A DNA stretch of 34,561 bases. Source: Planctomycetaceae bacterium (GTDB lineage Bacteria; Planctomycetota; Planctomycetia; Planctomycetales; Planctomycetaceae). The notes under the pieces are model-generated. The model had not been told where the DNA came from and ran no database searches. It was given only the letters and a program-made list of their open reading frames with translations. Positions 15,019 through 20,611 of the stretch are shown here, piece after piece. The stretch is from positions 1 through 34,561 of the forward strand of contig WFTL01000099.1 of assembly GCA_015485495.1 (NCBI GenBank), given 5' to 3'. Made by a program: the position numbers and the translations under genes. Position 1 is the stretch's first letter. Each line of letters opens with the position of its first letter.

Positions 15019-15447
15019 TCAGGAGGGGGGTGAAGAGCCGTGGCCGAGATATCCGGCGGATGATTCGAAGATGCGGCGTCGCCGGTGCCGGGGGGCGTCG
15101 GGCTGTTCGAGGTGTTCCTGAAGATCCTGCAGGCTGGCCTGGCACATGCGGCAGCCGATGGTCATCAGATGGAATTCGATGTAGTCGGCGGCTTCCTGGG
15201 GGAGGGTTTCCAGAAGGTAGCCTCCCAGCTCACTGCGTGTGGGACAGCTCAGACGAGCCCGTCTCCAGATGTCGCCCACGGTGTGACCGCCCTGATCGCG
15301 GTGCCGGATGATCTGGGCCAGGCGATGGCGCAGGGCCTCATCGCTGCGCAGTTCCTTTTCCAGCCGGACCATCCGTTCCGGCGGCAGTTGTTCTTCCAGC
15401 CAGGCCGACAGTTCCTGATCGGTCCATGGGGAACGTGTTTCGGACAT
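15019..15447 (-). CDS. Small zinc-finger, anti-sigma-like protein
   Basis: The 142-residue product has an N-terminal helical part (DQELSAWLEEQLPPERMVRLE) resembling domains that count as 'zinc-finger' anti-sigma modules. A second module follows, with Cys68 (LSCPTRSELGGYLLETLP), His93, Cys99 and Cys102 (HLMTIGCRMC). The order C...H-x5-C-x2-C is close to the ZAS zinc-binding anti-sigma motif (H-x3-C-x2-C). No membrane segment is present, so it would be a soluble factor. No ECF sigma gene is adjacent in the window; the next gene downstream is a sigma-54 activator. The ATG at 15447 starts MSETRSPWTD; a GTG at 15474 could add nine residues. Exact partner unknown. Confidence 0.65.
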   Translation of the reverse strand: MSETRSPWTDQELSAWLEEQLPPERMVRLEKELRSDEALRHRLAQIIRHRDQGGHTVGDIWRRARLSCPTRSELGGYLLETLPQEAADYIEFHLMTIGCRMCQASLQDLQEHLEQPDAPRHRRRRIFESSAGYLGHGSSPPS

Positions 15448-15739: not shown

Positions 15740-16708
15740 GTGGTTACGTATCGTACGTTTCATAATGCCGATCCCCCGCACCTGCTTCGCCTGTGGCATG
15801 TGTCCGATCTGGGGCCCAGTGCGGCCGAAGGGTTCCCCTGCGAGGTTCTGGAGCTGGCCGTCTTTTCCCGCCCCTACTTCGATCGCCGCGGCCTGATCAT
15901 CGCGGAAGCGGACGGGGCGATCGTCGGAATGGCCCATGCGGGGTTTTCCGCGACGGATGATGAAACGGCGCTCGATCGAAGCCGCGGGACGCTGTCGGCC
16001 ATCATGGTCCGGCCGGAATACCGCCGGCAGGGAATCGGGCGGGAGCTGCTGCGCCGCGCCGAACAGTATCTGGTGGCCCGGGGTGCCCGCGTGGTGACGG
16101 CCGGTGCCGGACCGAACGGCAACGGTTTCTACCACGCGATTTACGGCGGTGTGGAACCGTCCGGATTCGCGTCCGGTGCCGCTGCGTGGGACGATTTTTT
16201 CACGTCGGCCGATTATCGTCCGGGCATTCGAACCACGATCCTGCATCGGGATCTGGACATCGGTCGGGATCCCATCGATGCACGACTGATTCGCAATCGC
16301 CGCCGGCTGAACATGCTGATCACCGACCGCGTCTCGGATCATTCCTGGTGGTGGCATGCCCGGCACAGCCACCAGGACACACTGCAGATCGAACTGGCCG
16401 ACCGCGGAACCGGAAAAACGGTCGCCACAGGCCGCATTGTGGGGCTGGACATGTACATTCCCCGCTGGGGGGTGCGTGCCGTGGGCATTCGGGATGTCGT
16501 TGTGTCGGAAAACGAACGGCGGCAGGGCTATGCGTTTTCGCTCATCGTGGAAACCTGCCGGCAGCTTCGGGAACAGTCCATTCGGCTGGTGGAAGTGCAG
16601 ATTCAGGAAGACAACACGGCCGCGCGGGAACTGGTGACTGCCGCGAAATTCGAACCGGTGGCGGAACTTCGCACGTGGCAGCGTTCACTGAATTCCGACA
16701 CCACCTGA
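15740..16708 (+). CDS. Tandem GNAT-domain acetyltransferase
   Basis: The 322-residue product carries two GNAT folds in tandem. The first has an acetyl-CoA-binding motif A at about residues 88-110 (MVRPEYRRQGIGRELLRRA). The second has VVVSENERRQGYAFSLIVETC at about 253-273. Both have the RRxGxG/A phosphate-binding turn, although the second ends RRQGYA and may not bind acetyl-CoA. Such tandem proteins usually use one half for catalysis. The substrate (amine, antibiotic, peptide N-terminus or other) cannot be told. The start is GTG at 15740, giving MVTYRTFHNADPPHLLRLWH, a normal GNAT N-terminus. It is the first gene of a plus-strand run and ends 69 bases before the LOG-family gene. Confidence 0.88.
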   Translation: MVTYRTFHNADPPHLLRLWHVSDLGPSAAEGFPCEVLELAVFSRPYFDRRGLIIAEADGAIVGMAHAGFSATDDETALDRSRGTLSAIMVRPEYRRQGIGRELLRRAEQYLVARGARVVTAGAGPNGNGFYHAIYGGVEPSGFASGAAAWDDFFTSADYRPGIRTTILHRDLDIGRDPIDARLIRNRRRLNMLITDRVSDHSWWWHARHSHQDTLQIELADRGTGKTVATGRIVGLDMYIPRWGVRAVGIRDVVVSENERRQGYAFSLIVETCRQLREQSIRLVEVQIQEDNTAARELVTAAKFEPVAELRTWQRSLNSDTT

Positions 16709-16777
16709 CCAGGACGTGGCCGGCAGGCTGACAGAACACGGGACGTCACACGGGGCCGGATGACGGGAAGACGTTTC

Positions 16778-17347
16778 ATGGCATGCATTGCAGTGTTCTG
16801 AGGAAGCCGTGACGGGGAACGGGAAGCCTTCGGTTGCGCGGCCCGGCAGTTTGCGGTTCAGGCCGTTCAGCGCGGGCATCGCCTCGTGTATGGAGGCGGC
16901 AGCACAGGCATCATGGGGGCCGTCGCCGATACGGTTCTGCAGCACCAGGGAGTCATCACGGGGGTGATTCCCCGGTTTCTGGCCACTCGGGAACTGATGC
17001 ATCCGGAAGTGGCGGACATGAGAGTCGTGCCGGATATGCACGCCCGCAAGGAACTGCTGCATCGGCTGGCCGATGCCTATGTCGTCCTGCCCGGTGGTTT
17101 CGGCACGCTGGAAGAATTCTTCGAAGCGCTCACCTGGCGTCAGCTCGACATTCACCGGAAGCCGGTTGGAGTGCTCAACTGTGCCGGAGCATTCGCGGCA
17201 CTGGAACAGTTGTGCGATCAGCTGCTGGCAGACGGATTTGTGACGGAATCCTGCCGGCGTCTGGTATGCTTTCACACGGAGGTTCCGGATCTGCTGACAT
17301 GGCTGGACCGAACGATTGTGACGGTACCGGCCGGTTGTGACAGCTAG
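16778..17347 (+). pseudogene. LOG-family cytokinin riboside 5'-monophosphate phosphoribohydrolase with in-frame TGA at the FCGS cysteine
   Basis: LOG-type proteins split nucleoside 5'-monophosphates into base and ribose 5-phosphate. The frame runs from ATG at 16778 to a stop at 17347 (189 residues, the usual LOG length) with one internal TGA at 16799-16801. Around it the translation is MACIAVF, stop, GSRDGEREAFG; the family has FCGS here, so TGA replaces exactly one Cys codon (TGC to TGA is a single base). Everything after it is intact: VYGGGSTGIMGAVAD (residues 38-52), MHARKE (87-92) and PGGFGTLEEFFEALTW (105-120), which include the expected catalytic Arg and Glu region. The next possible start, GTG at 16886, would delete the first strand and nucleotide loop. 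It is either a fresh nonsense mutation, a sequencing error, or a selenocysteine/read-through codon. GGGAAG precedes the ATG by seven bases. Confidence 0.8.
16802..16831 (+). other. Possible hairpin just after the in-frame TGA
   Basis: Directly downstream of the TGA, CCGT (16807-16810) and ACGG (16819-16822) can pair around an eight-base loop (GACGGGGA). GAAG (16803-16806) can pair with CTTC (16828-16831) across an internal loop. Bacterial SECIS elements lie at about this distance, but this is a short, imperfect stem in GC-rich DNA. Confidence 0.2.
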
Positions 17348-17722: not shown

Positions 17723-19213
17723 ATGGTGCAGTTTAGTTCCAAAGAAGGTTTGAAGCGGTTTCTGGTTGGATCCCGGCTCGTCAGCGCCTCGGACTGGGAG
17801 GAGGTCGCCGGTCTGTTTCGGTCGAACAACAATGTCCGGGGCATTGTGGACAAGCTGGCCGAACGGGATCTTCTGACACCGCTGCAGCGCCACCGGATTC
17901 TCAGTGGCGAAGGCGAAAGTCTTCTGCTGGGCAATTACAAACTGCTGTACCGCAACGGGTCCGGCAGTTTCGCCCGCGTCTTTCGCGCGGCGACTCTCGA
18001 CGGCAGCCGCACGGTGGCTCTGAAACTTCTGCGGGACCGCTGGGCTCAGGATCCGAAGGCCGTGGAAGGATTCCAGCGGGAAGCCCGGATCTGTCAGCGG
18101 TTCAACCACCGGAACATCGTGCCCATCTATGACGTGGCATCGGACGGGGATCGGCATTTCATCACCATGGAATTCGTCGAAGGCGGCAATCTTCGCGATT
18201 TCCTGCGCATCCGATCCAGCGTGACACCGGTGGAAGCGGCCGAATGCATGTACGACATCTGTTCCGGACTCAGCTACGCCAATTCGCTGGACACGACGCA
18301 CCGCGATCTGAAGCTGACCAACGTGCTGATGAGCAGTGACGGGACGGCCAAACTGGTGGATTTCGGTCTGGCAGGAGCGGAAACGCCGACAGCCTCCTGC
18401 ATCAGCGACGACGTACATCGGGCACTCGAATATGCCTCGCTGGAAAAAGGAACCAATGCTCCGCGCAACGATCCGCGCACGGATATTTTCTTCGCCGGAG
18501 CGATCCTGTATGAGCTGCTCAGCAGCGAATCTCCCTGGCCGCGCACGCGCGATCGCGAAGAGCGGCTGCAGCTGAGCCGTTACACGCAGATTCGCCCGCT
18601 GCACACGTTTCGCCCGGATCTGCCGGATTCCATGATGGACATCACGGCCCGCATGATGGAAGTCAGCCCGAGTGCGCGGTATCAGACGGCCGATGAGGTG
18701 CTGGAGGATCTGAAAGGGGCGCTCATCGAGATGGACGCCTGGGATGAATCCTCACCGCGGGCCCGCGGCGGCAGTCCGCCTCCGGAGCCCCCGCCCGCGT
18801 CGCCGGCCGAATTCCATCTGCTCATCGTGGATCCGGTCGACCGCCGCCGGGAAGTGCTCGAACAGTACTTCGGAAAAAAACATGGATTTCGTCTCTCCTT
18901 CTGTCCGGATCCCCGGAAGGCACTCGATCGACTGCGCAGCAGCCGGCCGCCTGGCGGTGTCCTGTTCCTGGCCGATACGACGCGCGATGATGTGCTCGAA
19001 ATCTTCCCGCAGATGCAGGCCTGGGGCCGGTCGCTCAGGGTCCCCTGTCTGGCCGTGTTTCCCAAAGACGATGAATCCGTGATCCGGGCTGCCATCACGT
19101 CCACAAAGTACGGAACCACCATGTTCCAGCCGGCGACCATGCGGGATATTCGTCAGCACTTTGAAACGGTCGGCGGATTTGGTGCTGCCACCGAAGAGCC
19201 GGATGCGTCATAA
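17723..19213 (+). CDS. Ser/Thr protein kinase fused to a C-terminal receiver-like domain
   Basis: Hanks-type kinase, 496 residues, with no membrane segment. A short N-terminal helical region (residues 1-65, containing LAERDLLTPLQRHRIL) precedes the kinase. Kinase motifs are the glycine loop NGSGSFARVF (78-87), Lys101 in VALKLL, Glu120, HRDLKLTN (193-200, catalytic Asp195) and DFGLA (213-217). The usual APE is ALEYASLE. After a Pro-rich linker (350-362), residues 364-480 look like a CheY-type receiver: LLIVDPVDRRREVLEQYF, then VLFLADTT with Asp418 at the phospho-acceptor position, and a Lys near 448 in VFPKDD. Only one of the usual acidic-pocket Asp residues is evident at the start (Asp370), so it may be a pseudo-receiver. 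It may link protein phosphorylation to two-component input. The ATG at 17723 is the first of the frame. Confidence 0.9.
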   Translation: MVQFSSKEGLKRFLVGSRLVSASDWEEVAGLFRSNNNVRGIVDKLAERDLLTPLQRHRILSGEGESLLLGNYKLLYRNGSGSFARVFRAATLDGSRTVALKLLRDRWAQDPKAVEGFQREARICQRFNHRNIVPIYDVASDGDRHFITMEFVEGGNLRDFLRIRSSVTPVEAAECMYDICSGLSYANSLDTTHRDLKLTNVLMSSDGTAKLVDFGLAGAETPTASCISDDVHRALEYASLEKGTNAPRNDPRTDIFFAGAILYELLSSESPWPRTRDREERLQLSRYTQIRPLHTFRPDLPDSMMDITARMMEVSPSARYQTADEVLEDLKGALIEMDAWDESSPRARGGSPPPEPPPASPAEFHLLIVDPVDRRREVLEQYFGKKHGFRLSFCPDPRKALDRLRSSRPPGGVLFLADTTRDDVLEIFPQMQAWGRSLRVPCLAVFPKDDESVIRAAITSTKYGTTMFQPATMRDIRQHFETVGGFGAATEEPDAS

Positions 19214-19327: not shown

Positions 19328-20611
19328 ATGAATCTTCCGGTGTCCGGTGATCCGGTCGATTACTGCCCCGACACAGAAGGTCCGTGGGACGTGATCGTCA
19401 TTGGCGGCGGTCCTGCCGGTGCCACCACCGCCGCTCTGACTGCCGAATATGGACATCGCGTCCTGCTGCTGGAACGGTCGACCGTTCCCCGGTTTCATGT
19501 GGGCGAATCGCTCATCCCGGAAACCTGGTGGACTCTGCAGCGTCTCGGACTGATCGAGCAGATGAAGCAGTCCGCCTTTCCGCGCAAATACAGCGTCCAG
19601 TTCGTCAGCGACGGGTTTCGCGAATCGGCTCCCTTTTATTTCGACGAACATCGCCCACAGGAAAGCAGTGTGACCTGGCAGGTGGTTCGCAGTGAATTCG
19701 ACCGCATGATTCTGGAGCGGGCCCGGGAGCTGGGAGCGGCCGTTCATACGTCCGCTCATGTGACCGACGTCCTGTTCGAAAACGATCGGGCCGTCGGAGT
19801 GCAGGCGCAGATACGACGTCAGGGCGACACTCAGCGCGTTCGTCTGGCAGCGTCTGTGGTGGTCGATGCCACAGGGCAAAGTGCCTTTTTGAGCAGCCGC
19901 CGGAAAGACCGGCACCGCGATCCCCGTCTGCTGAAGGCGAGCATCTGGGGGTACTTTCGCGGGGCCCGGCGGGACCGGGGACGGGATGAAGGCGCCACGC
20001 TCATCATGCAGACGCCGGAAAAAAAGTCATGGTTCTGGTACATCCCGCTGCCTGATGACATCGTCAGCGTGGGATGCACGGCCGACCTGTCCTTTCTGTT
20101 CGGCCCTCAGCACGGCACCGCAGCGGATGTGTTCGCCCGGGAACTGAAACGCTGTCCGGCCATGCAGGAACGGCTGGCCAGAGCGGAACGGCTGGGCGAG
20201 TTCCTGACGACGAAGGATTTTTCCTGGTCCAGCGGACAGGGAGCCGGACACGGGTGGGTGCTGGTCGGCGATGCCTTCGGATTCATCGATCCGGTGTATT
20301 CCAGCGGTGTCTACCTGGCGCTGAAAAGCGGAGAGTTCGCTGCGGATGCCATTCACGAAGCGCTGTCCGACGGTGATCTGTCGGCCGAACGGCTGGGGCA
20401 CTGGCAGCCGATGTATCGCCGCGGAGTCGACAGTTTCCGCCGACTCGTGTATGCCTTCTACACCCCCGGATTCAGCTTCGCGACGTTCCTGAAGGAACAT
20501 CCGGAATACCATTCCAGCCTCGTCGATATTCTGATCGGCGACGTGTTTCGACCGGGCCTGGAAGACATGTTCGACGCCATGCAGCCGGAACAGCCGGCAC
20601 CGTCCGGCTGA
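19328..20611 (+). CDS. Flavin-dependent halogenase-like FAD oxidoreductase
   Basis: FAD-dependent enzyme of 427 residues with the dinucleotide-binding motif GGGPAG (residues 26-31) and FHVGESLIPETWW (56-68). The second FAD motif is WVLVGDAFGFIDP (310-322). Three signatures point to the halogenase branch, not to simple hydroxylases or geranylgeranyl reductases: WFWYIP (235-240), matching WxWxIP; FIDPVYSSG (319-327), matching the FxxPxxSxG pattern; and Lys87 in FPRKYSVQF, where phenolic halogenases place a conserved Lys. Halogenases use FADH2, O2 and halide to make a bound hypohalous species that halogenates an aromatic or carrier-bound substrate. No reductase or carrier protein gene is adjacent, so the substrate is unknown; some members of this family are not halogenases. 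The ATG at 19328 is 114 bases past the kinase gene. Confidence 0.85.
   Translation: MNLPVSGDPVDYCPDTEGPWDVIVIGGGPAGATTAALTAEYGHRVLLLERSTVPRFHVGESLIPETWWTLQRLGLIEQMKQSAFPRKYSVQFVSDGFRESAPFYFDEHRPQESSVTWQVVRSEFDRMILERARELGAAVHTSAHVTDVLFENDRAVGVQAQIRRQGDTQRVRLAASVVVDATGQSAFLSSRRKDRHRDPRLLKASIWGYFRGARRDRGRDEGATLIMQTPEKKSWFWYIPLPDDIVSVGCTADLSFLFGPQHGTAADVFARELKRCPAMQERLARAERLGEFLTTKDFSWSSGQGAGHGWVLVGDAFGFIDPVYSSGVYLALKSGEFAADAIHEALSDGDLSAERLGHWQPMYRRGVDSFRRLVYAFYTPGFSFATFLKEHPEYHSSLVDILIGDVFRPGLEDMFDAMQPEQPAPSG

Follow-up and report, generated by a model that had tools for sequence, protein, structure and literature searches.

An otherwise intact gene of the LOG family (TIGR00730 / PF03641), broken at codon 8, lies at positions 16778..17347 on the forward strand of the window, by which we mean the whole stretch of 34,561 nucleotides analysed here. 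The translated frame begins with the ATG at 16778 (translation could also begin at an in-frame ATG at 16760), reads MACIAVF, then a TGA at 16799..16801 (+), then GSRDGEREAFG, and runs for 189 codons to a terminal TAG. Only seven residues precede the TGA, which is the single in-frame stop; an open frame of 181 codons follows it (16802..17344, +), and homology is present on both sides. The 189-codon frame and its one TGA had been described in the first-pass annotation and were reproduced here, the frame after the TGA scoring 143.9 bits against TIGR00730 (cut-off 96.35). The same part scores 128.8 bits against PF03641 (cut-off 27) but does not reach the NF058542 (CtkRMPhLog) equivalog (109.2 bits vs 300). 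When Cys is entered at residue 8 the predicted structure is a confident LOG fold (pLDDT 93.3) with a strand at residues 3-7 and a helix at residues 16-31, and its nearest structures are 1YDH, 5ZBK and 5ITS (TM by query length 0.88-0.91). The protein is 39% identical both to CgLOG (Cg2612, 5ITS) and to the Pseudomonas type-I LOG (5ZBK), and it resembles these enzymes in predicted fold, in the PGGxGTxxE motif and in having counterparts of Arg99 and Glu122. Unlike known LOG genes, the window gene has a stop as its codon 8. Judged by profile and fold, the window gene encodes a LOG protein, with the predicted activity of a nucleotide 5'-monophosphate phosphoribohydrolase.

The source genome is a marine, Fuerstiella-like planctomycete draft of 4.67 Mb in 180 contigs, 98.19% complete. 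With the LOG protein as query the window gene is the sole match in this genome; a second, weaker PF03641 match (94.8 bits) is found on contig C34. Upstream of LOG lies a GNAT acetyltransferase gene (15740..16708, +) and downstream a protein kinase gene (17723..19213, +). Both occupy the same place in two congeners, G001 (L254) and Fuerstiella sp. ALOHA_ZT_14 (L087, treated here as G002), in which the syntenic LOG copies are intact. Downstream of the kinase, window positions 19328-20611 (+) encode an FAD-dependent oxidoreductase / tryptophan halogenase-like protein; neither congener stretch, L254 or L087, has a match to it, though L087 ends shortly past the kinase.

The cysteine column and the stop among relatives

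The TGA falls in the column of the FCGS cysteine. In an alignment of 138 homologue rows, repeats included, 129 rows are distinct, and at this column 123 of these have Cys, five Leu and one Thr. The first-pass annotation was thus correct that homologues have Cys here. It had worded the change as TGC to TGA, of which the single TGA at a Cys column stands; TGC as the earlier codon is an assumption, because both congeners have TGT. Since six of the 129 homologues have Leu or Thr, a thiol at this position is not strictly required. The five Leu residues belong to Desulfovibrio-like LOG homologues (L127, L138, L152, L154 and L157).

Catalysis in CgLOG has been proposed to rely on Arg99 and Glu122, with Ser19 and the PGGxGTxxE motif binding the nucleotide; in the available part of that paper's text no word starts with 'Cys' (PMC4979012). 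Mapped through the same motif (PMC4979012), which lies at residues 105-113 of the window protein, Arg90, Glu113 and Ser10 would be the equivalents of Arg99, Glu122 and Ser19, and all are intact. This bears out the earlier remark that the downstream motifs are undamaged. It had also been remarked that the FCGS cysteine is not known to be catalytic, and indeed the text available does not list it as a catalytic residue of LOG (PMC4979012). Tolerance of Leu and Thr at the column, in a protein for which an Arg and a Glu have been proposed to act in catalysis, is in keeping with an ordinary nonsense mutation and argues against a selenocysteine (Sec) at codon 8.

The first-pass annotation had proposed aligning the codon across close relatives, and the outcome is clear. 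We searched 170 genomes of the family, 142 of which have a LOG match, all of them listed, and a stop at the codon-8 column is unique to the source genome. The other 139 family genomes with a match covering the column all lack a stop there; in G094 and G185 the match starts after it and says nothing on codon 8. A stop flagged in G065 (L078) was rejected, being the natural terminal stop of its LOG gene. Searches of the phylum (183 of 392 genomes with a match) and of the class (241 of 397) gave no other stop at this column among the matches listed, and a TGA flagged in G522 is not the codon-8 site, its match beginning at residue 43. A UGA confined to one assembly, when the syntenic gene of both congeners reads TGT at this codon, is what a nonsense mutation would leave and counts against a Sec codon. 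No LOG match at E 1e-15 was obtained in 28 of the 170 family genomes, some of which are incomplete assemblies, and for this reason loss of the LOG enzyme seems tolerable in the family.

Selenocysteine decoding in the source genome

The first-pass annotation had noted that a TGA at a Cys position with a possible hairpin after it is also the pattern of a Sec codon, and that absence of the Sec genes would count against this. That refutation does not apply, as the apparatus is complete: tRNA-Sec (selC), selA, selB and selD were all found in the source genome. The tRNA-Sec gene (L041 8467-8559, G000:C138, minus strand) scores 72 bits, above the gathering score of 47, and has the anticodon tca. It lies on a contig other than that of the sel genes, and none of the eight frames scanned around it is a sel gene. 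On contig C174 selB, selA and an oxidoreductase-SelD fusion stand in a row. SelB is above its cut-off with 300 bits (333 with the neighbouring stretch), and the profile scores of SelA and SelD are 487 and 221 bits. In the fusion (L086, G000:C174, 5303-7468, minus strand) SelD follows a pyridine nucleotide-disulphide oxidoreductase domain, and the SelD part has GCGC near its start and is without an in-frame UGA. SelA is present in 70 of the 170 family genomes, the source genome counted and both congeners among them. Some planctomycetes are already known to have Sec machinery and candidate selenoproteins, two of them, P1 and P2, with full sets of Sec-insertion genes in the part of the report available (PMC4807772). 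By its gene content, then, the source organism decodes Sec.

The same genome encodes a SelW-like (Rdx, PF10262) selenoprotein of 75 residues with the motif CVMU (L258, G000:C14:50926-51150, minus strand; PF10262 72.1 bits). All 35 SelW rows of the family with E 1e-22 or better have an in-frame TGA, compared with three of 25 weaker rows, which are partial matches and probable paralogues, and all 20 loci that were read have the TGA at the CxxU position. The SelW rows share a hairpin with the loop [AG]GU[CU]U, which lies about 21 nt downstream of the UGA. In the hairpin alignment of 19 rows, 17 of them distinct, 91.6% of the pair cells are paired and two pairs have changed on both sides. The loop resembles the one in E. 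coli fdhF. Scans of 0.99 Mb and 1.35 Mb by coding score and hairpin gave SelW as the only selenoprotein of the source genome under the criteria applied, the many TGAs next to Cys in the 1.35-Mb scan having been read through only briefly; the family also appears in the table of a 2026 inventory of prokaryotic selenoproteins, as far as its text was available (PMC13188914).

With the machinery and a SelW-like selenoprotein in the genome, the prior for Sec at the LOG codon is therefore real. The LOG gene resembles the SelW gene in having one in-frame TGA in a Sec-decoding genome, its UGA stands where homologues conserve a Cys, and the frame after it is intact. These features sit uneasily with a plain nonsense mutation. 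The real selenoprotein nevertheless differs from LOG in each of its hallmarks, having a UGA common to the family rows, the CxxU motif and a conserved, covarying [AG]GU[CU]U hairpin. TGA is moreover the common stop of this genome, ending 233 of 285 long ORFs, and a nonsense mutation to TGA would be in line with this.

RNA downstream of the TGA

A bacterial SECIS would sit in the stretch 16802..16881 (+). Here generic hairpins are possible, and the [AG]GU[CU]U hairpin of the lineage is missing. We took the bacterial SECIS rule from the available part of PMC13188914 and looked for a hairpin 16-37 nt downstream. LOG fits the rule with a hairpin of -8.2 kcal/mol, loop AGCC and offset 23, and a second hairpin with a 6-bp stem and an 8-nt loop at offset 36 fits as well. 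Taken by itself this fit would speak for Sec and, to that extent, against a mere nonsense mutation. The rule is, however, also passed by 102 of a sample of 300 Cys codons from the source genome, 87 of the 300 at least equalling LOG; by stem length alone 2262 of the 3208 Cys codons pass and 679 equal or beat the 6 bp of LOG. A generic SECIS rule passed by a third of the sampled Cys codons calls for caution in a GC-rich genome.

The hairpin that the first-pass annotation had suspected thus exists in the sense of the generic rule. It folds no better than shuffled sequence (z 0.34, with 128 of 200 shuffles folding as well), by a measure that is also blind to the SelW hairpin of the same genome (z 0.02). 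Four SelW stretches gave z-scores of -3.07, the only clear one, 0.02, -0.44 and -0.78. Because the SelW hairpin of this very genome fails too, we dropped fold-energy z-scores as a test. A scan of 1.35 Mb found 15,842 TGAs with at least 40 open codons after them. Ten combine a GU-type hairpin with a positive coding score; SelW scores highest among these, and in the same scan LOG is without a GU-type hairpin. A covariance model built from 19 SelW hairpins, and hence from one protein, finds nothing at the LOG site. Run genome-wide, with 150 of 8776 candidates scored, it gives SelW 64.4 bits, the model deriving partly from that sequence, and the next candidate 20.3 bits (E 0.24). Ten of the model's 12 matches were examined, and no convincing gene besides SelW was found among them. 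The RNA results are weak evidence against Sec in LOG, since the model comes from one protein, many bacterial SECIS elements are unlike each other according to the part of PMC13188914 available, and the z-scores miss the genome's own SelW hairpin.

The literature points the same way. In the available text of the 2026 inventory, which covers 119 prokaryotic selenoprotein families and subfamilies, a word search for LOG names, PF03641 and TIGR00730 gave no hit (PMC13188914). Among the best-ranked papers on selenoproteins or selenocysteine with LOG names, none describes a LOG selenoprotein. Reading of the UGA as Sec, giving a 189-residue LOG selenoprotein with FUGS, is in our view improbable. It would amount to a recent Cys-to-Sec change beside the phosphate-binding loop in one Fuerstiella-like planctomycete, with a SECIS unlike that of SelW, and if true it would be a further family of selenoprotein, lying beyond known redox chemistry and seen soon after it arose. 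Between a Sec codon, a nonsense mutation and a sequencing error the first-pass annotation had not chosen. Its Sec reading has gained from the genomic machinery, which could not be seen from the sequence it had read, and has lost through the uniqueness of the UGA among relatives, the lack of a lineage-type SECIS and a column tolerant of Leu and Thr. From these comparisons LOG is probably not a selenoprotein. Calling one takes more than Sec machinery and a TGA that falls on a conserved Cys.

Age and origin of the stop codon

The coincidence of the stop with a conserved Cys has to be weighed against chance. Besides codon 8 and the start there are 45 one-base routes to a stop in LOG, 17 of them to TGA, so that codon 8 is one of 46 single-base nonsense targets. 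A random nonsense change would land on it with a probability of 1.2-2.2%, or 3.7-5.6% if TGA is required. For a gene picked blindly this is suggestive, and it is a point against an ordinary nonsense mutation; the figure loses weight because, among the many windows read, this gene was chosen for the coincidence.

The rest of the gene is undecayed, as in a working protein. Among the 38 columns conserved at 90% or more in the 129 rows, with codon 8 entered as Cys, the sole departure is Met94 to Leu. In a tree of 29 sequences, a single tree without support values, the branch from the genus ancestor is 0.40 for the window LOG and 0.50 and 0.57 for the intact congeners. The earlier judgement that such preservation is unusual for an old pseudogene agrees with both results. 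One departure in 38 columns and a branch no longer than those of the congeners suggest that the change is recent, or is an assembly error, or that the protein is still made.

The first of these is the reading we prefer, with a probability of roughly one half, namely that a LOG gene which used to work has recently acquired the TGA as a true nonsense mutation. The odds of the four readings considered here are judgements. A one-letter change, the base being real, would have made codon 8 a TGA, ribosomes would terminate at the UGA after seven residues, and the LOG enzyme would be lost by an ordinary event. A re-start at the GTG at 16886 (codon 37) would not rescue the protein because the product would begin past the first strand and the first helix of the Rossmann fold. 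The absence of any sign of long decay fits a recent event of this kind, and equally leaves a gene that looks as if it were still in use.

A consensus or base-calling error in the assembly, the LOG gene of the organism itself being normal and having a Cys codon, is a serious possibility to which we give somewhat less credence. One substitution would account for everything, the frame is otherwise intact apart from Met94, the branch is no longer than those of the congeners, and the genome is a draft of many contigs. TGC or TGT to TGA is a transversion, and it is C to A if the codon was TGC, which makes up 1957 of the 3208 Cys codons in long ORFs of the source genome. C to A is a common oxidation artefact. 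Against an error, in-frame stops look rare in the assembly. Stops occur in 18 alignment rows of the comparison with G001, and by eye LOG alone has its stop inside a well-aligned gene; the other 17 resemble, again by eye, gene ends, leaders, low-identity paralogues or shadow frames. This comparison comprises 144 near-full-length matches, taken by length and identity from the longest frames, so shadow frames are possible, and LOG was included by design.

The UGA might also be leaky, with near-cognate tRNA reading or an internal re-start giving some working protein. An open frame with intact motifs past the TGA and start-like codons at 16886 and 16913 would allow this. The first in-frame start is, however, codon 37, downstream of both the strand at residues 3-7 and the helix at residues 16-31 in the predicted structure, and we consider leaky expression very unlikely.

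In having one disabling base in a gene that is otherwise intact, the window LOG resembles ordinary single-stop pseudogenes and draft consensus errors alike, and it is unlike them in that its stop falls on a conserved Cys. The likely reading, one broken or mis-sequenced metabolic gene, matters little.

One observation runs counter to the absence of decay, in that LOG is less conserved towards the congeners than its neighbours are. Identity to the congeners is 70% for the GNAT acetyltransferase, 68-70% for the kinase and 58-64% for a small gene nearby, and it is lower for LOG, at 54-56%. In the comparison with G001 the LOG value is 53.7%, where the quartiles over the 144 matches are 47, 60 and 71%. 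The tree puts more of the divergence between LOG and its congener copies on the side of the congeners. The small gene (window 15019-15447, minus strand) is without a Pfam match and is conserved at the same 58-64% in both congeners and in L090.
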